Notes under the pieces: generated by a model
The model's input: only the letters and a program-made list of their open reading frames with translations
Database searches by the model: none
Told to the model about the DNA's origin: nothing
Part shown: in pieces, positions 14,540 to 32,520 of the stretch
How positions within the stretch are numbered: position 1 is the stretch's first letter
Layout of the letters: every line of letters starts with the position of its first letter
Translations under genes and position numbers: made by a program
Assembly: GCA_031763025.1 (NCBI GenBank)
Contig: JASSKH010000010.1
Coordinates: 14,525,427-14,589,426, forward strand
Length of the DNA: 64,000 bases
Direction of reading: 5' to 3'
Source: Macrocystis pyrifera
Lineage: Eukaryota > Sar > Phaeophyceae > Laminariales > Laminariaceae

Positions 14540-15340
14540 GTCGACACTACGGTGTTCGACCCCAAACAGTACCCTGACCTGACTGCCTCTGCCCTCTCTC
14601 ACCCGTCTCTGCTAGTTTACGAGATACGATACCCGCGTCCTCTGGGTTATTGCGGGTGTACGTCTTGGAAGACTCTGGGGACTTCCATCTGCCTTCTCTC
14701 TGAATCACCCTCTGCGGCACTTCCTCCCCCGCCGCTAGAGTGGTGGTTGCGCCGATACGCAATGAATGGAGGCCGACTTCGCTGGAGTCGTCTCCTGCTT
14801 CCGCTACCACTTCGCGGAGTGCCCCGAGGGCCTCCGTGTACCCCCACACTCTGACCTCATTACCGTACCGATACGACGACAGGGGGGCGCTTTCTGGCAA
14901 CGTCGGATATCCCGACAACAACTCCACCATGAGAGCGACGACACCGCCGCCTGCTTCTACCCCGGAACGCGCCCCGAAGGCGTCGTCGCGTGTGCGCACG
15001 ATAACCGATCCTTGCTGAGCCTGGCCGCCTTTATGGCCCCGAAATAGAACTTCGATGCTGATAGCCTGATGCCACTGCAGCGAGTTCAACCGCCGCCCCC
15101 CCGCGAATAACGCTATGTCCCCCCTCGTCAAGCAATGCACGGGGGTGTACTGCTCCGGACGAAGAGGTGGATATTTCGTCAGACCTCGCCATGAAAAAAT
15201 AGCCCAACGCTAGCAACAGCCAAAGCGCTCGGCCGCTCGGGCCCCACGACAGGGCCAGGCCCTGTCCTTCCAACAACATGTCCGATATAGGGCGCCGAAT
15301 TCCTTTCGGGGTACCGGCGGCAACGTCCGCCGCTGTTGCT
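14540..15340 (-). mobile_element. Tyrosine-recombinase element fossil (DIRS-like)
   Basis: The minus strand carries tyrosine recombinase blocks: LALGYFFMARSDEIS, an Arg-containing N-terminal catalytic block; the HxxR box HSLRIGATTTLAAG; and the C-terminal box GRWKSPESSKTYTRN with the catalytic Tyr, followed by a C-terminal tail. This combination is common in DIRS-like YR retrotransposons and related YR elements of algae and oomycetes. Position inside interrupted direct repeats (left copies to 14530, right copy from 15345) suggests the split direct repeats of PAT/DIRS types. No reverse transcriptase was seen, so the copy is partial, and the recombinase has at least one break. Confidence 0.75.
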
Positions 15341-18676: not shown

Positions 18677-21600
18677 CTAGTGTCCGTTGACAGTCCCCCT
18701 CGTCAACGGTTTCCTCTTGTTCCCCGTGACTTTCTTCGGCCACGCCCTTGTGCCACAGGTCGTGCACACCGGAGAGAACTCGCAGAATACGGACAAGCAC
18801 ACCGAGCATCTGTCCAAAAAGGGCAGCGAAAGCAAAAACAAACACAAAGGTCAGAGGACAGGCGAGGCTACCAAAACTATCGTGTGGAGAGGCGGGGGAG
18901 GGGCCTAGTATATTTGGGGGAGGGGGCAGGGAGTCGTGCTTTCTTCGAACACGATGCAGCTGGTAGGTCAGACATCCACCAATCCGGCGAGGGCATGTAT
19001 GACGAAACACGGTGGCACTACTTTAACAAGTCAATATCGTATCGGTGATTTACCCTTCAAAGACTATTGTTGACATTCCCCAGAAATGAGTTCCTCTGCA
19101 GAACCACGAACTGCCGTGCAGAAAAACGTGCGTGTTTCATCCAACGCAAGAAGCGCAACGAATGGAAGGCTGATGATAGCGTCGACAGGCAAAACAGACA
19201 GATGAGCTCACACGTAGGCGATGTCGACGATCCGCTTGTGGCAGAAGCATGCGGCCCTAAAGTCCACGCTCTGCTGCTTGCGGAGCTTGAGATACTTGCG
19301 GCAGCTTTGGCTTGGCAAGAAGGTAGTCAAGAGGTACTGCGCTATTCCCACTTCTTTGTGCTCCAGGTACAATCCCTCTGAGGCCCCATTCGCCACCCAG
19401 CGAGATCAGCGCAACATGAATCGCGCACACGGAACAGGGGGACAGAAGTCAGCGTGGATGATGCTACAGTTCGCGGATTTCTAGCTTCTCGTATACGGAA
19501 CTAAGTATCTTCTCGACATCCAACTGTACTGGAGGTGCTACTGTACGTCCTAGTAGCTCTGGCGCAAGACACTTTGTTTGTAGCACACCCAATACTAGAG
19601 CCACAACAATCAGGTGCATAACAAGAACCCGAAACGAACGATGTGCCTCACGAAATTCTACTGTAGAAAAGGAATAACCACGACAACAAGCAACAGAATG
19701 AGCGAGGAAAACCCCCCGTCATCTCCCGCGGCTCTCTCACTCGTCAGGTAGGCTGCCTGCTGTAGAAAAGTGGAGGATTCCCCAAGCACGGCGCAGTCCA
19801 CCAGCACGCCCGCCTTTTGCGCCGAAAAAATCGCGTTCATGACGGAGTTGTACGTCTCCGGCACGTCAGGAGCCCCCGAGAACACAAGGGCGCGCGCCTG
19901 TATCGCCATGAAAGGTCAAGCGAGACGAGAGTAGTGTCGACATGAGGCCACATCTCGGGGATACTATTAATACATGACAAGGAGGAGGACTGCTGAAGCG
20001 AAGAAACCTACCGTTGCGTCTATGCCATAGAATCTATATTCATGTTGCTGTAGTTGCCTCTCAGTTTTAATGGGTGGTGCAACATATTTTTCACACTTCA
20101 GCGGGACTGCAGCTGCCATTCTCCCGCTACTCCCGCTGCTCTCTACATATCATGCGCTATTGCCGACTTTTATCTCTGTTTGCACTTCCCCCTCCGTTTG
20201 TCTGGCCCGTTTCCTCTCTTCTTCCTTCTCCGTCCTTGTTCCTCCTCTCCTTCCGAGGTTCGCCTTCAGGAGCTACAAGGCGCATGCTCGGTGACAAGGT
20301 CGTGTTCAAATTGAAAGCGCAAAGGTCGTAAAGCCGTGATGGTGAATGCTCGACACCTCAAGACACACGAGATTACTCGAAGGAGGAGGGACCGGTGGTT
20401 ATCGGGGGGTTACACACTGACCTGAATAGCTGGCGTCTCTCGCAGTTTTCGGTTAACGTAGCAGAGCCCCTTTGACAGGCCTCCTGCCAGCGTGCACCCC
20501 GCCCTCGTTCCATCGGAATTGTCTAAGAAACGAAAAATAACGCGGCACAGCAATCCACATCCAAGGTCAACGAGGGGGCGGGAAAGCGCGACGAAGTGAG
20601 CGGGAGGCGAAAGTACACAACTAGACACGTAAAACACGCTTCGTGAGATCATCGTGCGTATATTTTTTGTTGCAGGAGTCCTGAGGGTGTAGACAAAACA
20701 CCCTCAACGGGCATACAGAGGTACTGCAGTAAAGCACGTCAAGATAAACGCGAAAAACAGTCGGATGTGGGGCGTGCAGGCAGGGATATGACGCAAGTGC
20801 TCCTCCACATGACTGGTACACGAGCTCGGCATAAGACCCACCTCCCAGCTCCCATGAGAGCCATTCATGTGTGGCGCTACTTGCAACACTATGAACGGAA
20901 GCGTTAGGTCTCGCGTTTACATCTTTCTCGATGTTTCCTTCGTATTGTTCACCAGGCGCCAGTTATGAGAATCATGAACTTGCCTCTGGAGTGCTCCCTT
21001 TCAACTAATCGCCCCAGGCTGTCCCACAGACATTGCTGAAATTCCTTTGTACTGACTGAGCCGGTGCCGAGGGACCGATGATCGCGCTCCATAGCAAGCG
21101 TGGGAAAGACGACGGTGCTGATTTGGGGGGGCGGGTGCGGGGACAAGGGGTGACGTGAAAAGTGTCAAAATTGGTTATGGTTGACCCGGTACCGATGACC
21201 TACGTATACAGTTAATCTAAGTATATGCCATGTACGTGTTTGCCTTCTTTCATGATTATGGTGGTATGATATGCTAGCGGACTGCGCCTCTTGATGGGGA
21301 AATAGAGAGCACGGGAAATGCCAGTGCTGCGTGTCGATCGTTCTTATCGAAGCGACGGCCGGAGGCGGGCCGCTGTCCCATGTGGGTCGCCGAGAAATAT
21401 TTGGCAAACAAAGGTTTAAGGTTATACTGTTAAGATTACTCTTGGTCAATCGGGATGAAATCCTCGCAAGGCCACGTTACCTCTTGAGCTGGCCGCTGGC
21501 CGCACAGTCGTTGTCGGTTTCTGCTGGTGTTGTATTTCTTGCTGTAGTGCACTGCTTACGGCAATGCGCTCCTATAACGTTCGTACCTGGTACGTACCTG

Positions 21601-24600
21601 GTACCTCGTACACACTTTGGTATCTTAACTTCACAAATATCGGGAAAGCATTCTTTGGAAACCGTGCGTGTTCCGGTACGTACTTTAATACCTGGTACAT
21701 ACGAGTACTATTTTAATAGGGGTCAGGTAAAGATAGAATAGCTGTCGTTAGGAACTCGAGCAGCAGGATATTTACAACTGTTAGGGACGGGACTGGAGGC
21801 CTGTTTTGACCCGAAAAAGCGGCAGGCAATTCGAATCGACCAGCCAAACTATATTAAAAAATCTGAAAAAGTAAAACTACCGCTATACTCCCAACCACTC
21901 CCAACTGCTTGGGGTTAGTGTGGATGCATAGTGAACTTGTATATGCTATTTCTCTAAGGTGGGGATGAAATCGATCTTGACGTCATACAGACATCTAACA
22001 CAGGCACATACCGTTCGGATGACTTGTTTTATTAGCACAGGAGTACAAACTGACGTCTTTATAGACTAAAAGGTGCGGAACAATATGTTTATCCTGTGGT
22101 TTTTGCCTCTTGCTCTATGGCGTGCTTTGAGTAGTGCGGAGACATGTCATACTCTGGATTGCAATGTGCGGCATACAGCAAAACAAACCCCGGTCGAATC
22201 GACGTAGTATCCGTAGAGAACGATCTGGCGGAAAATTGCCCCTTCAGTCACTTTTTCGGGACCACGACAGTCAACTTCGAACAGAAGGAATCTCGGCCAA
22301 GGGCAAAAGGAAAACAATTGCCCAAGTGCACCGGGAGGCATATCTGCAGCGTACAGATCGTAGCGTCCACGAGGCGTCGGCGATCGTGTGCCGATCGAAC
22401 GTTGTTGTCTGCCGTGGCATCGCGGGGGGCGAGGACAGCCGCGATCGGGCTCTGTAGCAGCGAGACGCCAGTCATGTCGAGACTGCTCAGGCAAAGGCAT
22501 CCCTGGAATCAGCCTCTCGTACGATTTTCGACCAAGAATCGAAGCTCAACCTGGAGCAGCTTAGGCGCGAGACGAACGAGGCCCTCGCAGAATTCCAAGC
22601 TGACCTGCGCGAACAACAGAAATCTGCGCATCGGCAAGAGGTCAACCTTGTTGCCACCAAGGCGCGGTCGGTAGAGCTGGCGGAGAGGTTGTCTAAGATG
22701 CGTCAACAAGGAAGAGAGCTGGCAAAGCAAAATACCACCCTACTCCAGGAATTTGGTATGGCGGCTGGCGAATGGGCTCCATCTCGTGGCGGGGGGACAG
22801 GGGGGGAGGTGAGCGAGAGGTCGCTCCAACGCGACTTCATGCACGAGAAGATCAAGGTGTCGCAGCTCAAGCGGAAGGCGAAGGTCATGGAACCCTTGTT
22901 CGCCAAGTTGAAGACCAAGACTGGGAGTCTCCAGAAACAGGTGATCCGGGCTTTCATACTTGCACACCCTGGACAGCTCATGAGCTAGTTCATCTATCGT
23001 GTATAGCTCAAGCTTCGAAAACATGCGCAGATGAGCTACCGTCTATAGCTCAAGCCGGGGGAAACATGTGTAGCTCATGTAGCTCCTATAGCTCATCTAG
23101 GGCGCTGATGAGCTGTAGATGAGCTATCTTCTGTAGCTCAAGCCTTCAAAACATGTGCAGATGAGCTACCACTTTTAGCTCAAGACTTCAAAACATGTGC
23201 AGATGAGCTACCACCTATAGCTCAAGCCTTCAAAACATGTGCAGATGAGCTACCACCTACCAGGTATACCTCAAGACTTCAAAACATGTGCAGATGAGCT
23301 ACCACCTACAGCTCAAGCCTTCAAAACATGTGCAGATGAGCTACCGCCTATAGCTCAAGCACGGGAAACATGTGCACATGAGCTATCGCCTATAGCTCAC
23401 CCCCGGAAAATGTAATCATAGCTCATGCACGCAGCTCATTGCAGCTCTTTCTCGGCAACACATAGACAAGTAGCTGAAAAAGCCAACCCTCCAGGACAAC
23501 TGCGTATGTATAGGAATAATATGGGTTCGGCCTGGGTTTGATCGTTGTCCTTATCCACATCGATGACGTTGTTCGTGGGGTCCACATCCATCGATGGATC
23601 CGGTTGCTGCCCGTCGCCCTGGTCTACGTCCGAAGCGCCGCTAGAGCTGCTACTCCGGGTCGTGGGCATGCTAGGGGTGTTTCTGTGTGGTATCCATGTT
23701 GTATTCTGTTCGAGCGCCTCTTGTGGTGTGCATGGTGACAGCTGACAGCTGCAAAATATAGAAGTTGTCAAAAAACGAAAATTCAAATTATGTTGGGTGT
23801 CGACCTATCGTCAGGTATCTTCAGAACAGCAGATCCGATCTCATATCATATCACATACTGCTGTACCTGGTACGTACAAAAAAAATGTGGTTGTTTGTGT
23901 TGATATCGTTCTATTCTGCGTACTTGTATTGGCCATTTATACAGCTCATGAACTACAGTAGCTCATCTATCCCCTGTAGCTCAAGCTTGGAAAACATGTG
24001 CAGATGAGCTATCGCCTATAGCTCAAGCTTTGAAAACATGTGCAGATGAGCTACCGCCTATAGCTCAAGCTTCGAAAACATGTGCAGATGAGCTACCGCC
24101 TATAGCTCAAGCTTCGAAAACATGTGCAGATGAGCTACCGCCTATAGCTCATCTCGGGGGTAGATGAGCTAGGTCATGTAGCTCCTATAGCTCACTCTGG
24201 AGATATATGTGCAGATGAGCTATCCTCTATAGCCCAAGCTTGGAAAACATGTGCAGATGAGCTACTCTCCTATAGCTCAAGTCAGGAAAACGTGCATAGC
24301 TCACGTAGCTCACGTAGCTCACCAGTGAGCTAGCTCCTTAAAGAGCTAGCTCGAGCTACCGTGAGCTGATCTGTCCGAGGTGTGCATACTTGCTATTTTT
24401 AACGGCTAATTTGTTGTGATAATAAACACAAACCTGAAAAACTTACTGATACACCACACACAACTGGCACGTACGAGTATCATGGCTTATTCGTTTTTGG
24501 TGTTATATAGGTAAACGATTTGATTCGTTTCGCTTTCGTACCTGCTGCTGCCAGGTACAATATACCAGGTATAACGTACTGCCATTTTCTATCTATAGAA

Positions 24601-24715
24601 ATATGTTGGAAACGAAAAAATCGTGCCTCGCTGATGCTGCTGGTGCTTCCAGGTGACACGGAAAAGCGAGAGGCTGGTGGCTTACAACGCGAAAGCTTCT
24701 ACGGAGGAAATGGGC

Positions 24716-24752
<37 letters not shown>

Positions 24753-27700
24753 GTACTCGATAGGAGAGGTGTACCCGATCTCATGCATGGCCGTAGTCGT
24801 ATGATCATAGACCCTCGCGTCCCTACACTGCCGGGACGGAGCATGTCGGGTTTTCACCGACCAGGCAGACATTGCTTGCACCAAGCGCGAAGCGCCGTGA
24901 GGTGTCCGGTGAGCCGCATGAAGGGTGAGCTGTATCCTACTAAGAACTGTTTGTGCGGCGGACTTGCATATGGATGACAGCTTCAATTAGTTATTATAAT
25001 TTCCGGTGTAGACACTTTCCTGAGACAGCAACGGGAGTACTATGTAACTGCCTCTTGGGTGCCTTGCCAAGAACATTAGATGGGGGGGGGGGGGGGGGGG
25101 GGAGCGGTGTGGTGGGGGGGGCGGGAAGTGGTGTGGTTGCACTTGATGACGGCCTCGACCTAACCAAGGAGCAGCAGCACGGCGTGGTGGTGGGTCAGAT
25201 TCGGTCCTGTCTAAAGCCCGACGGTCATTTCGGCGAGAATGTAGCCCGCACATTCCAGGATCTCCTACAGCGTAGAACTTCGCTCACCAAAGTCAGGCCA
25301 ATTCTTCAGACTTCTGTCCTCCATTGCACTGGCGTCAACATGCGCAACGAGCTTCAAGATGACCTTTGCTCGCGAGACCGTGAAGCTTCACACCCTCGGC
25401 ATCACTAAGCTCGATAGTGACGAGCTGACTGCGGCAATCCTGCGAGCACCATTCCTGTGCGTGGCAACGGACGAGTCTCTGTGGAACGGTGACAAAAAAT
25501 ATCCGATCTTCGTTTCGTTTTGGATGTCGAGGTTGACGCCCCATGTTGGGGAGCCATCAGCATCTGCGTAATGAAGGATAACACGGCCGAGACGCAGGCC
25601 CAGCTGTTCTACGAGACCATCGTCGGCGTTCCCGGGTACCCGCGGGAGCGAGTTCTCTATGTGCTGAGCGATAACACTGCTTCGGTTTCGGGTAAGGTGT
25701 GGGGGTTCGTCGCGCTGCTGCAGAGGAAGCTCAGAGGGGAAAACACCACGCAACGGGGGGGCGAGAGCTGGAGCAGCACGTGGCGGGCGGGAACGGGCGA
25801 GGGGTGGGGCGGCACGCGGAGGACGAGGCGTAGCGGCACGGGGCGGATGAGACGGAGCGGCAAGGGGCGGACGAGGCGGAGCGGCAGCGGAATACGAGGC
25901 GGGGCGGCTGGCGGGGGGCGGATCGGGGCGGTCGAGCAGGCATGAACGTTGACTCTGATAGCTTCGCCGAGGGCAGTGGGGTTTTCGTTTACGGCAGAGG
26001 CAAGCAGGCGTTGGACGCTTTTTTTTCGTGGCATGATACGACTTCGAGTACGATTTATTTTGCCTTTTATCCGATATTGATTCACCCCAACAGCCGGTGT
26101 TGACACGCGGCTCGCTGCTGCTGCTGCTCCTTCCGAGCTCAGGAGTGGCAGGAGCAGAAACATGATGATAACGAACACAAGTTCGGCGACAGCAGCAGCA
26201 GGCTTTGCAACAGGTCTGGTTCATTGATATCTGGCACAAATCTGGACAGGATTGTAACGATCGTTTGGTTTTCATATTTATCCATCAACGTTGCTCACAT
26301 TTCCGGGCAAAGTTACGCATCTTGCTTTTTTCATCTGATTTCTCGATAGGTGATTTTATCTTCTTCCGCTCTGTAACTTCGCACGACAAGCGTGTGTCGA
26401 CCCGCGCTTCGCTGCTGCTGCTGGGGAGGAGCCATACTGATAACGAACACGACAAGCTTCGTGACTCGTCAGCGGCAGTTGCAGCAGCAGCAGCAGGAGG
26501 CAGCGGCAGTAGGGTTTGTAGAAGCGTTGGTCCATTGCTACCTGGTGTGCTACGAGTATGATACAGCTTCAAGTAGTTATTGTGCATTTTTGTCTGGTTT
26601 CTCGATAGGTGCTTTTGTGTTTTTCCTTTACGTAATTTCGCATGATAAGAGTGTGTTGCCCGCGCGTTGCTGCTGCTGCTGCTGGGGCGGAAACATACTG
26701 ATAACGAACACGACAAGCTTCACGATTCGTCGGCCGCAGTTGCCGCAGCAGCAGGCAGTATCAGTAGGATTTGTAGCAGGGCTCATTGATACCTGGTATG
26801 ATACGAGACTGATACGAGTACTGTACACGTATTTATTTTGCATTTTTCGTCAGATTTCTTGATCGGTGATTTTGTGGATTTTCGCGTTCTCCCTCCCTGC
26901 AATTTCGGGCGACAAACATTTCTTGACACGCGATTTGCTTCTGCGGCTGCTGCGCTCATGACCGGCTGGTGCGGAAAAAAATCGGATAACGAACACGACA
27001 GGCTTCGTGCCTTGTCGTCTGCAGTTGCAGCAGCAGCAGCAGCAGCAGCAGCAGCGGGTAGAGAGGTGTAAGGGATGAGTAAGATACGAGTACGAGTATG
27101 TACCAGCATTATACGATCACGGTACGTATACATTTTTCTTTTTCATCGGATTTCTCGACAGGTGATTTTGTGGATGTTTGGGTTCTCCCGCTCTAAATTT
27201 CAAGCAACAAGCATTTGTTGACACGCGGTTTGCTTCTGCTACTGCCGCGCTCACGATCGGCTGGCGTGGAAATATACTGAAAACAAGGACGACAAGTTTC
27301 GTGCCTGGTCGGCGGCAATTGCAGCAGCAGCAGCAGCAGCGAGTGGAGTGTGTGTGATACGAATATGATACGACTACGACGAGTACGAGCATAATAAGTA
27401 TTTGTTCCCGGCATGTATTTATTTTTTTTGTCGGGTGTCTCTCGATCGGTGAGTTTGGGTTCCTCTAACCAATTTGACGCGACATGCGTGCGTTCACGTG
27501 GTTTGGTGTTGCTGCTGCTGTACACGAGACAAGTTCGCCGTCTCGTCGGCACCAGTACTTACGGCAGCGGGCAGCAGGGTTGGTAAATCGACTGGTTGAT
27601 CTGGTGTGATATATGGTAGACTAGTACGAGAGTACTCTGTTACATACCGGGTGTGTTTCTATACTTTCCATCTTAACCTGCCTTGACCGGCATTATTTTG

Positions 27701-30700
27701 CGTCCTCCCTCTCTGGGCTTTCGCGCGATATTCGTTTGTTGACACGTGGATTGTGTTACTGCTGCCAAGCCCCATGATCAGCTGGGGCGGCCACGACATC
27801 ATAACGTACCAGATAAAGCAGCAATAATAATAGGACGTTCCGAAGTGGTGTGTAGAACTTCACACCGACTAAGACATGGTGTGTAGAACTTCACACACAC
27901 CGAATGATTTCGGCTCAAAAAAAAAGCGAGTCATGATCATCTCGCCCTTGGGTGGCTTTTTGTGACAAAAGAACAACAAATTTGAATGGCTGGTGTTTGA
28001 TACATATATATTATTCTTTGCTTCTCGTGCTTGCTGGAGCCGCCCGCCTTCCCCTTTTCTTCGCTATCAGTCCTTGTAGAACATCCTGACCCTCTAGCGG
28101 TCGCTTCCGCTGTTCACGTGCCTTCGGCACTGGTCTGGTCGCTCTAGTTCTCGCCGCGCGCGCATCGTTCTGCCTCCTCAAACCGGCCTCGCGAATATCC
28201 GTGGGTGTGGCATTAACCTTGCAAATCTTCCTAGACTCTCGAGATCTGTACTGCCCTGTCCGTACTTCGTCTAGCTCCGAAACGTCGGTCTTGCGAGCAC
28301 ACGACGTGTCGTTCTTGGAGAAAAACGACTCCACAAGTTGCTGGTGTACGGGCGCCATAAAAAAAGCAGTGGCAACACTCCTTATACAGCAGGCTAGCGA
28401 ACCCCCAAACCAATGGAAAGTTAGACCCCTTGCCTCATCGACATCCAGCTCTACATCCCCCTTCGTGGATTCCTCGTAGCGCTCCAACTCTGAATCAGCT
28501 CCTGAGAATTGTCAAACATCGAAAAAAGTCCAAGCGTTAACCTGTCCTTTTCGCTGTCTGTGTTGGCCTCATCGAGATCTGCCTCAAGAATTTTGCGATA
28601 CGATGCCTCGCGTTCCGACACAGACGTCTTGCGTTCCTCCCTAGGCCATACTACCGCTAGAAAAGCACTCGCAAACTCTTGTCCTGCCGCTCGCTCCAAC
28701 GACGAAGCCCCACCGGCCCATTTCCCCACGAAAAACGACGAGCACCCCCCAAGCGCGCCATCGACAGCGGCAGACGCTGGCGCCTGCCCATCCACCAACG
28801 AAGAAGCCCTCGTCTTCCTCGTGCTCGCTGAAATTCAACGTGAAGTGGTCGAACTGCAGATATCAAGCAAACAAACAAGATGGTAATGCGGCAGGAACAA
28901 AAGCAGCAGTCGCAGGGTGAGAGTGGTATAGGTGAGGTTCCGCAGCAGCAAGCAGGGAAGGGCATGGCAGCAGCAGGAGGGAAGGGAAAGGAAGGAAGGG
29001 ACACGACACGGACAAAAATATATACCACTCTGTACCAAAATATAAGGACATATTATTATAATATATTATAATATGTCCTTATATATCGGTGTATATTCGT
29101 ATCTTACGAAAACAAACAAACTCACTTCGTCCGTGTTGAGAGTGGCTTTCGCAAATTGGATCACGTCCTTGAAATAGACGTCCTTGTTCGCCCGTAGCTC
29201 CTCTAAGCGCGCCCTCATCTCGACGAAGAAGTCAGCCACCTCCACAAAACGCATGGCAGGAGGAAGCTGTCGGCGCAGCCTTTCACGCTCCACGAAGAAC
29301 CCACCCTTGCCTCGAAACCAGTGATACGCCCAGTTCAGGACGAGTTCGCCCAGCTCCGTCGCAAAGCGTGCATGCACCCGAATATCCGGGTCCTGTAGCA
29401 TGTAGGCCGCTTGCAGCCAGTACTTCTGGGACGGGGTACCAGGCAAATTCTCCGCCGCCCACGTGCAAAATACCCACTTGAGTTTCTCCCAGCGTTTGTC
29501 CAGAAGCGCGGCGGCGCCCTGCCAGATTACCATCCACCGAATCTCGGGAGGCCGACGAACTTCTTCCATGTTAGCCCGGGGAAGCGCTCCGTCGCCGGTT
29601 TTTCGAACTGCTGGAAGGTGGAATTGTATGTGTTTGATCTGCTGATGTTGTACCACACAGACCCCAGAAGCGCCACCAAGTGGTCCTCCTTCCACTCATG
29701 CCAACTGCCTACACCGAGAGGGCCCGTGAAACAAGGAGTTGTCAACCCCGCAGTCACGAAGATGTGCAGGATGTGCAACACGCAGCCGAGGCAATGGCTG
29801 TGGATAGGAACATATTGTACCGCAGCAGCAGCAGCAGGATGAGAGCAGCAGCAGCAACAGCAGCCGGGTCAGCAGCGCCAGCAGCCGCACCAAGACCAGC
29901 AGATCCACTTTCAACCAGACCTTTAGGGACTGCACTTGCGGGCTGTCAGCCATCGAGTCCGAGGGTCCATCAGTAAATCCCCCTCACCCTCACGCGCCCG
30001 TTCGTGCGCTGCTGCTCAAGCACCCGTCGTGGTGTGCCATGCGAGAACGATACCAGATTTAACATTTTTTGTGTGTGCTGCTCCGCTCTTTATTAGCGAG
30101 ACGCTGCAGCTCCTCTACCATGCCCTGGTATATGATACCACATGAATAGTTTTTTTTGTGATGTTGTCCATTCTTTCCCCAGCGCTGATTGGTTCATTTC
30201 TTAAAGATTGCTTTTTCCCAACTAACGACCGCTGACATTTTTTGGGACTTTTTTACGTCTAAAAATATTTCAGTCCTGCCCCTAACTGTCGTCGACTTGT
30301 GTGCGTTGGGTGTTGATGAAACACAAAACCAACAAATATATGTAACAAACGTACGAAACGCAGGGCATGCAACAACTGCACGAGTACTCGTACACCAATT
30401 ACACCCCCCCCTGGCCACCGTTGAACTGCCCGCCACTCCGCCACTCCGTGGGCGGTCACCCCTACCTGTCCTGCGCTTCGGCGAACAGCTGTACGTACCA
30501 TTCTCGGCCCGCTACACCTCCAAAAAACCTCCTCCGCTGTACGAGCACTGTGAAGGTGTTACCCACTGAGCTATAGGGGTAAAAGATCGATCGATTACCC
30601 AGCCCAGGGCAATCCTTATAACCCTACGCCCCCCTCTGAACGGCGGGATCTTTGGGGCGTCGGTACCGTATACGGCCGTACGCTGGCCTACCCGCTTCGT

Positions 30701-32520
30701 TTCAATACCTGGGGAACCAGGAAGATATGTTTTAGGGACGCACGCGCAAGCGTTTTTATAAAGGAAACGTTCCAAATGAGGCTCGAACCCGTGTCCTGTC
30801 GACGACGCCAAATGTGAAGGTGTTACCTACTGAGCTATAGGGGTAAAAGATTGATCGATATACCCAGCCCTGGGTAATCCTTATAACAGCACTCATACTG
30901 CAGTAGGAAAATGTTGAGTACCCAAACTAAGCGTAAAGTTTGTTCGGAGGTAGAGGTTTCTGTAGAAGGCATCGCACAACAGCAAGCATACGAGAGACTA
31001 GAAGAGCACAGCAGGTATAGCCCAGCCAGCCGTTCCCATCTGAGACACTGGATGCGCACAGCGTCGGCGGCGGCTGCCTCGCCGCGTGGTGCTGTCTTTG
31101 TGGGCGCGTTGTGTTCTCTGTCTGCACTGACGCGATAGCGATCAACCGGTGCTGTTAAACAAAACTATTTTGTGTCTGCTGTGTCATGTTATTCCGCTGT
31201 GAAATTTTCGGAGATCATCGCGGTCGTAGATCCACCTGACAGTGGTTTCGAAGGGGGTCCCGAAAAGAAAAGCGCCGTCGAAATTAGAAACGTTCGCGTT
31301 CGCAATTATTTCTTCTAAGTAGGCACAGCAGCAGTAGCAGAGTAGCAGTAGCTATAACCACCTCGCACCTTTCTTGCGAGGAGCAGGCGACAAAGCACAC
31401 CTCGTTCCGCCTATGCATCATGAGGTAACTCTCCACGAACAGCAGGGCCGCCTCCACGGTGTCCTGGAAAGAGGACAGGGCCACCTCTCCCGACCCCGGC
31501 CGCTGTCATAGCCGGAAAATGTCAGCAAGGGGCCAATTGGTCTGTCTGTTAAGAAGAAAGTGGCGGGGGGTTGATTACAACTTATTCGAGAAAATGGTTG
31601 GCACACACTGCTGTGTACCGAAACGAATAGTAATTACCCCTGACCCTACCCCTAAAACCTAAGCCAATCAGAGCAACCCTCATCCTGACCCTAAGCCACT
31701 CAGACTAAATCTCGACAAGTAAGCTCTACTTTCTGGAGTGGCTCGCTCCAGAAGACAAGGGATCGACGCCGTGGGTGAATCTGCTGTACATCTACATAGG
31801 AGAACAGTTTTTTCGTCCGATTGCCGTCGACAGGTACTCTGCAGGTGTAGATAGGGTACCAACCCGCTGCACGCAGCAGTAGTACAGCAGTAGTACAGCA
31901 GTGGTATTGGTATTGGTGTTTTTGGTTAGGATCAAAAGCGGGACAGCACGACTCAATCTGTCAATGAAGTTGGGGCAAGCATTCGGTGCTTGTGTAAAAC
32001 ACTATTAATAGTCAACAGCAGAATACCTGGTACTCGTACGAAGCAAATACCAATAAGTCCCTAAATATAAAGACCGTTCACATTTCAGTTTAATCAACAA
32101 AAGCTACCTATATTTCGGTACGTAGTGGTGGTCAATATCAATGCATCCGCAACTGCGATAGCAGTAGTGCTGTCAATGCAACTCACAGCGCTGCCTGCAC
32201 ACAGCAATGCTGATCAAGGCAGTGTTAGTGTTTGCGGTGAGGTCGGCTACAGCGCTGTACAGCACACGAGTATTACCTACTGACGTAATACTTTAAGTCC
32301 TGCTGTGTACGACCGACAGCTGTTGTCTCCTGTCTACTCTTGTACCTGGTACCTGGTACCACTTTTACTGGCTCTGTGATAAGATTTGATTGATTTGTGA
32401 AAATATTCGCACCGCGTCTTGTCGTCGGCGGGTAGCCTCTCGCTTCGTCCAAAAATCTGACGATGCATCTAGCACCACCAAGAGAAGGCTTGGCTCCTCC
32501 TCGTCCATTGGTCGCGACAT
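18677..32520 (-). CDS. TFB4: TFIIH core subunit p34/Tfb4, seven exons, complete
   Basis: This is a subunit of the TFIIH core, acting in RNA polymerase II initiation and nucleotide excision repair. Exons in transcript order: 32413-32520, 31369-31502, 20984-21117, 20422-20522, 19741-19897, 19212-19377, 18677-18809. All junctions agree in phase and give 310 codons plus stop (human p34 is 308 aa). Exon 1 starts MSRPMDEEEPSLLLVVLDAS, the first strand of the vWA-like fold. Exon 2 has SYLMMHRRNEVCFVACSSQE, exon 4 TLAGGLSKGLCYVNR, exon 5 ALVFSGAPDVPETYNSVMNA. Exons 6-7 form the C-terminal zinc-binding part (FRAACFCHKR, then CSVCLSVFCEFSPVCTTCGT). Intron 3 uses a GC donor (AGAG|GCAAGT). Intron 2 is 10.25 kb and packed with repeats; the others are 0.36-0.91 kb. 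Confidence 0.92.
22134..22988 (+). pseudogene. Coiled-coil protein fragment inside p34 intron 2
   Basis: A plus-strand frame runs from about 22134, meets a TAG at 22455-22457, and then continues open in the same frame to 22988. The second part is strongly coiled-coil: KLNLEQLRRETNEALAEFQA, VELAERLSKMRQQGRELAKQ, then VSQLKRKAKVMEPLFAKLKT. A Gly-rich hinge (SRGGGTGGEVSE) separates two helical parts. No family was recognised. It lies antisense within the p34 intron, so it may be a gene fragment or the remnant of a transposed gene. The downstream end merges with the minisatellite. Confidence 0.5.
22976..23450. repeat. AGCT-rich minisatellite array 1 (about 42-46 bp units)
   Basis: About ten tandem units of the form agctcaagccttcaaaacatgtgcagatgagctaccacctat occur here. 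Each unit holds tagctca and its reverse complement tgagcta, so single strands can fold on themselves. Units vary mostly in the ctt/cgg segment. Confidence 0.9.
23942..24375. repeat. AGCT-rich minisatellite array 2
   Basis: The same unit as array 1 appears in about nine tandem copies, several nearly identical (gcttcgaaaacatgtgcaga then tgagctaccgcctatagctc). It ends in a run of short agctcacgt repeats. About 490 bp of non-repetitive DNA separates the two arrays. Confidence 0.9.
24718..24751 (+). repeat. 34-nt uninterrupted poly-G tract
   Basis: Thirty-four consecutive G residues follow gggcga and precede tgtactcg. It can form stacked G-quadruplexes on the plus strand. It lies in p34 intron 2, so the pre-mRNA carries the poly-C strand. 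Confidence 0.95.
25082..25131 (+). repeat. Poly-G tract, 21 G then G-rich
   Basis: Twenty-one G residues (25082-25102) are followed by a G8 run and further G clusters. It is the second such tract in the same intron, immediately upstream of a transposase remnant. Confidence 0.9.
25140..25745 (+). pseudogene. Transposase remnant, hAT-like
   Basis: Three overlapping plus-strand frames carry consecutive parts of one transposase-like protein: LTKEQQHGVVVGQIRSCLKP; then LRAPFLCVATDESLWNGDKK and YPIFVSFW; then MKDNTAETQAQLFYETI, RVLYVLSDNTASVSG and FVALLQRKL. The TDES box followed by SDN resembles the catalytic region of hAT-type transposases. Frame changes near 25360 and 25520 mean it is broken. 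It ends abruptly in a G-rich minisatellite. The family call is from motif memory. Confidence 0.55.
25745..25935 (+). repeat. G-rich minisatellite, 15-20 bp units
   Basis: Repeats of the type gagacggagcggcaaggggc and cggacgaggcggagcggcag follow one another at the end of the transposase remnant. It translates to Arg/Gly-rich sequence in several frames. Confidence 0.75.
26040..27830. repeat. Degenerate 250-300 bp satellite with CAG runs
   Basis: Six to seven units occur here. Each contains a block like tttctcgataggtgatttt, then cgcgcgacaag..., ttgacacgcg.tttgcttctg, a ctgctgctg run, aacgaacacgacaagcttcg, tcgtcggc.gcagttgcag and a cagcagcag run. Units start near 26330, 26600, 26860, 27155, 27440 and 27690, with a partial at 26090. 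Units have drifted strongly. Confidence 0.85.
27846..27896. repeat. Duplicated 20-bp self-complementary motif
   Basis: The motif tggtgtgtagaacttcacac occurs at 27846-27865 and 27877-27896. Inside it gtgtg pairs with cacac around a gaact loop. It sits just beyond the 3' side of the minus-strand transposase remnant and might mark its end. Confidence 0.7.
28011..29780 (-). pseudogene. Minus-strand transposase-like gene remnant
   Basis: Upstream part (about 29113-29780): HEWKEDHLVALLGSVWYN, KWVFCTWAAENLPGTPSQKY, FATELGELVLNWAYHWFRGK and RQLPPAMRFVEVADFF. A plausible intron follows (donor GTGAGT after NTDE; acceptor ctgcag near 28857). The downstream part (28011-28856) has SEREASYRKILEADLDEA, then APVHQQLVESFFSKNDTSCA and a basic Arg/Lys-rich C-terminus. 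Frame changes near 29545 and 28470 suggest decay. It looks like the middle and C-terminal half of a hAT-like transposase, possibly the same family as the plus-strand remnant at 25.1 kb. It lies in p34 intron 2 in sense orientation. Confidence 0.5.
29040..29084. repeat. 45-nt AT-rich palindrome
   Basis: The arms ataaggacatattat and ataatatgtccttat match exactly around an AT-rich centre. It lies in the probable intron of the transposase remnant. Confidence 0.85.
30550..30623 (-). repeat. tRNA-like repeat copy 1 (box A)
   Basis: On the minus strand it reads ttttacccctatagctcagt, containing a good Pol III box A (TAGCTCAGTGGG), preceded by ataaggattgccctgggctg. No matching box B follows, so this copy is a fragment. 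It shares about 70 bp with the copy at 30.8 kb. Confidence 0.6.
30770..30888 (-). repeat. tRNA-derived SINE-like repeat, copy 2 (boxes A and B)
   Basis: On the minus strand, box A TAGCTCAGTAGG (about 30829-30840) and box B GGTTCGAGCC (30780-30789) lie about 40 bp apart, as in a tRNA. The ends do not pair as an acceptor stem, so it is a tRNA-like head rather than a working tRNA gene. The leader ataaggattacccagggctg is shared with copy 1. Confidence 0.65.

Follow-up and report, generated by a model that had tools for sequence, protein, structure and literature searches.

The p34 subunit of TFIIH is regarded as essential, and transposons of the hAT class are recognized by an 8-bp duplication and by short inverted ends starting with CA. 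In the brown alga Ectocarpus, 81% of the genes are reported to carry a genic transposable element (TE) (PMC12477816), and published mean intron lengths for three assemblies of the kelp Saccharina japonica are 1,057, 1,203 and 1,816 bp (PMC4421812, PMC6507550, PMC11836290). Among miniature LTR-type elements, Helenus has been reported from fungi, animals and plants (PMC10886601). Here, a stretch of 64,000 nucleotides from the giant kelp Macrocystis pyrifera (the window) was analyzed, in which a p34 gene contains an intron of 10,251 bp. This intron very probably grew mainly through the insertion of one 8.5-kb transposon, along with an adjacent 340-bp TRIM, into a normal single-copy p34 gene.

A single-copy p34 gene with one long intron

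The p34 gene is formed by seven minus-strand exons (32520-18677) that sum to 933 nt, corresponding to 310 amino acids plus a TAG stop, with all phases in register:

32413-32520, minus strand, p34 exon 1, start ATG at 32520
31369-31502, minus strand, p34 exon 2
21118-31368, minus strand, p34 intron 2, 10,251 bp, GT-AG
20984-21117, minus strand, p34 exon 3, GC donor at the 3' end of the exon
20422-20522, minus strand, p34 exon 4
19741-19897, minus strand, p34 exon 5
19212-19377, minus strand, p34 exon 6, where the Cys-rich end begins
18677-18809, minus strand, p34 exon 7, stop TAG at 18677-18679

Introns 1 to 6 measure 910, 10,251, 461, 524, 363 and 402 bp, five of them with GT-AG borders and intron 3 with GC-AG. 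The donor of this intron (20982-20983, minus strand) has GC in place of GT, in the context AGAG/GCAAGT.

The predicted product matched the Tfb4 domain (PF03850) over positions 1-273 of 273 (E 2.6e-72, 244 bits against a cut-off of 27), and among the chains of solved structures it matched a GTF2H3/p34 chain with E 6.8e-49 and Tfb4 chains with E values from 2.7e-29 to 9.4e-23, which relates it to the p34 of both human and yeast. Its C-terminal Cys-rich stretch (ACFCHKR...) aligns with human p34 and is predicted to bind zinc. When the protein was searched against the whole M. pyrifera genome, seven matches were obtained, one per exon and all of them at this locus, and no second p34 copy was found. 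Read from its sequence, the locus is a normal TFB4/p34 (GTF2H3) gene present as a single copy. The initial annotation had described an intact p34 gene of seven exons with agreeing phases and a 310-residue product, and the complete domain match bears this out; its exon coordinates and the borders of intron 2 were correct, and the uninterrupted second p34 gene elsewhere that it had named as contrary evidence was not found in the genome.

TE-filled long introns can give premature ends or mis-splicing, and one p34 donor is of the rarer GC type, as might be expected of a broken gene, a dying copy that can no longer be transcribed or spliced across the transposon. We consider this very unlikely, as the p34 frame, its splice sites and its full domain are intact and the intronic TE load of Ectocarpus is reported to hardly affect expression (PMC12477816). 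Moreover, no other p34 copy was found in the genome, and therefore losing this locus would remove a core TFIIH subunit.

A divergent plus-strand ORF has its first ATG (32729, picked by eye) 208 bp away from that of p34, and only weak matches below the cut-off were obtained for this ORF (FAM101, E 0.026; HHL1-like, E 0.062). Elsewhere in the window, the ORF at 14547-15209 (minus strand) gave a weak match, also below the cut-off, to the phage integrase family (PF00589, E 5e-4) and is possibly a tyrosine-recombinase element, and a tandem array with a 126-bp unit (3.9 copies, 89% matches) occupies positions 510-1004.

Intron 2 is 11 times as long as the next longest p34 intron, the other five being of 363-910 bp, so that its proposed excess of more than tenfold holds. 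As a yardstick, we used the exon matches of two conserved families in the same genome, Cpn60/CCT (80 rows) and Adaptin_N (52 rows), keeping those gaps in which profile positions were continuous within 12 residues (n = 72 introns). Gaps with missing profile positions were dropped because exons may hide in them, and rows separated by over 40 kb were left unjoined; therefore, very long introns would escape this yardstick. The sampled introns of these two families had a median of 1,056 bp, a 95th percentile of 3,342 bp and a maximum of 8,426 bp, and when all the gaps were counted six were above 5 kb and none above 8.5 kb. As it is longer than all 72 sampled introns, p34 intron 2 lies in the upper tail. 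The M. pyrifera genome has 25,919 annotated genes (PMC10498591) and, we infer, will hold many introns of this length. In brown algae, introns that are long and carry TEs are usual, and p34 intron 2 is ordinary in kind and large in size.

The transposon and other repeats of intron 2

The following features were delimited within intron 2:

21782-30284, no strand assigned, DNA transposon with terminal inverted repeats (TIR), 8,503 bp, ends TAGGGACGGGACTG / CAGTCCTGCCCCTA
22305-22940, plus strand, N-terminal coiled-coil part of the plus-strand gene, one stop inside in the window copy
22963-24384, no strand assigned, nested non-autonomous hAT-like element, 1,422 bp, CATACTTG on both sides
24718-25102, plus strand, nested poly-G-flanked repeat, a 3'-short copy of an abundant repeat
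25172-25744, plus strand, D..D-type region (DES ... SDNT) of the plus-strand gene, two frame shifts in the window copy
about 26080-27770, no strand assigned, degenerate CTG/CAG satellite lying between the transposon genes, its units counted by eye as about 7 and measuring 245-310 bp
about 28158-29868, minus strand, minus-strand gene, spread over several frames, with C.LH.LH, RW and HQQLVESFFSK motifs
30549-30888, minus strand, Helenus-like TRIM, 340 bp, outside the transposon, terminal direct repeats of 73-75 bp, duplication GTGC (4 bp)

To obtain the borders of the transposon, pieces of the intron were searched against the same genome, and the relatives retrieved in this way were aligned to the window. 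Positions 30289-29666, then 24674-24385 and then 22963-21777 of the window are matched end to end by L023 (2.1 kb); L026 (1.2 kb) matches 30289-29683 and then 22390-21780; and L028 (1.2 kb) matches 30285-29685 and then 22392-21791, with a left end that is degraded and not clean. By their sequences, these three are internal-deletion relatives of the transposon, with both inverted ends present and the middle missing. The transposon is flanked by ACTGT on both sides (21777-21781 and 30285-30289), L023 by ACAGT on both sides, and L026 by ATAGT and ACAGT, which share four of five bases. A 3-bp duplication (CWG) with palindromic neighbours also fits the flanks of the transposon.

As regards class, the flanks of 21782-30284 do not fit hAT, 5 bp being shared between them and not the 8 bp of that class. 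Nor do they fit Harbinger, since the 3-bp duplication described for that class is TNA or ANT (PMC12477816) and the flanks here are ACWGT. No Pfam family was found above the cut-off for any of the transposon ORFs given to the search, the best match being Syntaxin_2 (E 0.0028) for the coiled-coil ORF, and a PDB sequence search with one relative returned only matches of E 0.34 and worse. Relatives of the plus-strand half were also sought among viral contigs, where none of 57 pattern matches was confirmed.

Assemblies fail in repeat-rich stretches, and the published M. pyrifera assembly was scaffolded with Hi-C (PMC10498591), so the length of intron 2 could be imagined as an artefact produced by joining unrelated sequence into it. 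However, the same assembly was built from PacBio reads (PMC10498591), the exons on either side agree in strand, order and phase, and the transposon is present in full with a matching duplication at either end. A misjoin would hardly have put both ends of the element in the intron. Such an artefact is thus extremely improbable.

The nested hAT-like element starts with CACACC and ends with GGTGTG, and the 8 bp CATACTTG on each side correspond to the duplication size of hAT elements; no transposase ORF by which to classify it was found within it. Two arrays of 42-bp units, at 23117-23399 and 23967-24281, both lie inside this element. L023 lacks the 1,422 bp and reads straight across their position; as to the order of insertion, this empty site shows only that the element entered the transposon after its split from the lineage of L023. 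When the best 40 of 831 first-look candidates were scored, 39 other places matched the element, in 27 cases along almost the entire element.

The two poly-G tracts of the intron, of 34 (24718-24751) and 21 (25082-25102), are the flanks of the nested repeat. This repeat is abundant, as 39 other places matched among the 40 scored of 4,758 candidates for the searched stretch, and in its full form it measures about 510 bp (L016-L020, L064-L069, L071, L072). Fifteen other copies were examined, of which L063 was unmatched by the head pattern, although its G-run is visible, and the 3' end of L070 was not found; the 13 copies with both ends visible all have G-runs on both sides (5-22 at the 5' end and 6-31 at the 3' end). 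For comparison, a six-G run occurs in 2.8% of the 60-nt stretches on one strand of the window and in 2.2% of those on the other. L039 and L040 have an unoccupied run of seven G at the corresponding position of the transposon gene. The repeat sits between G-runs as if it targeted poly-G.

Several units of the CTG/CAG satellite contain a run of CTG and, after it, one of CAG. A genome-wide satellite family was rejected, since 26 matches were obtained, the best outside the window being 81 bp long, and the satellite is local to this place.

In the TRIM, a putative A box closes the terminal repeat and a putative B box lies just inside the element, beyond the repeat. Matches to it were found in 30 of the 40 places scored for the stretch 27840-31300. 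Eleven copies, including that of the window, all have terminal direct repeats, with a TG start in 8 and a CA end in 10; a 4-bp duplication, judged by eye from the flanks, is exact in six of them (one inside an AGT microsatellite), agrees in 3 of 4 bases in four and is absent in one. No tRNA genes were detected in the window by ARAGORN, and no Rfam matches at gathering scores. The repeat at 30549-30888 resembles Helenus.

Two convergent transposon genes

A genome search with the plus half of a relative of the transposon returned 11 rows at nine places, which amount to eight loci when the palindromic L039 is counted once, and a search with the minus end returned 6 rows at five loci. L039 (G000:C190:3846500-3856400) consists of two nearly identical mirror-image arms, each with a plus gene and the end of a minus gene. 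The minus half accompanies the plus half at four of the eight loci (the window, L039 in both arms, L040 and L041), and it is convergent in all four, that of L040 being without the last motif. In L042, L043, L046 and L047 no minus half was found within at least 4.7 kb downstream of the plus half, while the 9.9 kb retrieved for L044 and for L045 contain the minus half and no plus half. The plus-half search gave no match at five other places that have a minus half (C215, two on C200, C137 and C131). Lone halves are consequently commoner than pairs, and no place was found with both halves on one strand.

Of the 38 listed pairs, 29 gave a pairwise dN/dS value (Nei-Gojobori, on short stretches) and the other nine were saturated. 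The values ranged from 0.11 to 0.34 in 23 pairs and from 0.38 to 0.75 in the remaining six; for the middle part of the minus half among convergent loci (window, L040, L041), four of five values were 0.23-0.32 and one was 0.51. Both halves look constrained. The low values of these 23 pairs of family members, which concern both gene halves, might also be read as a sign that the host uses the transposon genes, as a functional antisense or nested transcript within intron 2. Nevertheless, the constraint is seen among transposon copies and not among host loci, and in the window copy a stop and two frame shifts disrupt the plus gene, into which other elements are also nested, which leaves host use with a minimal probability.

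Taking the two genes as those of a transposon, they might tentatively be seen as one DDE-type transposase split over two convergent genes, with two aspartate-type motifs in the plus gene and RW and a final glutamate-type motif in the minus gene, a reading that we regard as possible but rather doubtful. The DES, SDNT, RW and HQQLVESFFSK motifs were presumptively assigned to the DDE triad by comparison with hAT motifs, and not from a structure or a profile match. If the reading is true, two proteins encoded on opposite strands must join to make the transposase enzyme. A search of the literature by title and abstract found nothing on a split transposase.

Growth of the intron and comparison with known systems

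The transposon alone makes up 83% of intron 2. Without it and one of its 5-bp duplications (10,251 - 8,503 - 5) the intron would measure 1,743 bp, and without the 340 bp of the TRIM 1,403 bp, which is near the median of the 72 sampled introns. Intron 2 would thus have started as an ordinary intron of about 1.4 kb, a length obtained by arithmetic and not from an observed empty p34 intron. Insertion of an 8.5-kb cut-and-paste DNA transposon would have given the bulk of the present 10.25 kb, and the TRIM would have added length beside it. Inside the transposon, the additions would be the hAT-like element that carries both minisatellite arrays, the repeat inserted in a run of G and a CTG/CAG satellite that expanded locally, and these guests may have entered it before or after its landing in p34. 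As all the inserts lie between the intact donor and acceptor of one intron, the whole load should be spliced out, leaving the protein unaffected. Directly observed at the locus were the gene anatomy, its single copy, the boundaries of the elements, their target duplications and one empty site, that of the nested element; this splicing, the expression and essentiality of p34 in the kelp, the initial length of the intron and the succession of insertions are inferred.

The initial annotation had proposed a repeat-driven growth by many separate repeats. Repeats did lengthen intron 2, yet growth was essentially one insertion with nesting, because without the transposon and the TRIM only those 1,403 bp remain. 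The items that it listed are present, and the CAG-bearing satellite stands as described (about 26.08-27.77 kb), but the two minisatellite arrays are parts of one nested element, the two poly-G tracts belong to a single nested repeat, the supposedly independent transposase remnants, although transposase-like, are read as the two convergent genes of the transposon, and the tRNA-like motif is that of the TRIM and not of tRNA genes. The locus offers a dissected example of intron growth in an ancient conserved gene, with one insertion accounting for most of the length and further sequence nested in it, and such an account is sharper and more testable than gradual bloat. Its by-products may matter more, namely the TRIM resembling Helenus, found here in a brown alga, the poly-G-landing repeat and the transposase that is possibly split.

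With respect to TFB4/p34 (GTF2H3) as a TFIIH core subunit, the kelp protein shares the whole Tfb4 profile and the C-terminal Cys-rich end with human p34; the gene departs only in the length of intron 2, no protein difference being noted. The nested element shares with hAT non-autonomous elements the 8-bp duplication and the short inverted ends starting with CA, and differs from them in having 42-bp arrays near both ends.

The kelp intron has in common with those of Ectocarpus a high intronic TE content and a large DNA transposon with other TEs nested in it (PMC12477816). The same study suggests that only young genes tolerate the longer TEs, and the kelp p34 case runs counter to this suggestion, with an 8.5-kb element in an ancient conserved gene. 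Like the Ectocarpus Harbinger elements described there with two tail-to-tail genes, the kelp transposon has two convergent genes in one TIR element; unlike them, its flanks are ACWGT (or CWG) and not TNA or ANT, and its proteins have no Pfam family above the cut-off.

Like Helenus, the kelp TRIM is a miniature element of the LTR type that includes a sequence resembling the Pol III promoter of tRNAs, and it shares 4-bp duplications with animal Helenus (PMC10886601). The tRNA-like sequence expected inside the LTR is, however, only partly there in the kelp, the 73-bp repeat containing the A box but not the B box, which is just outside. The host is also different, since the main text of that paper makes no mention of brown alga, Ectocarpus, Saccharina or Phaeophyceae. 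Finally, the poly-G repeat seems to insert at simple repeats as described for microsatellite-targeting TEs (PMC5907723, PMC8449440), its own apparent target being a G homopolymer.
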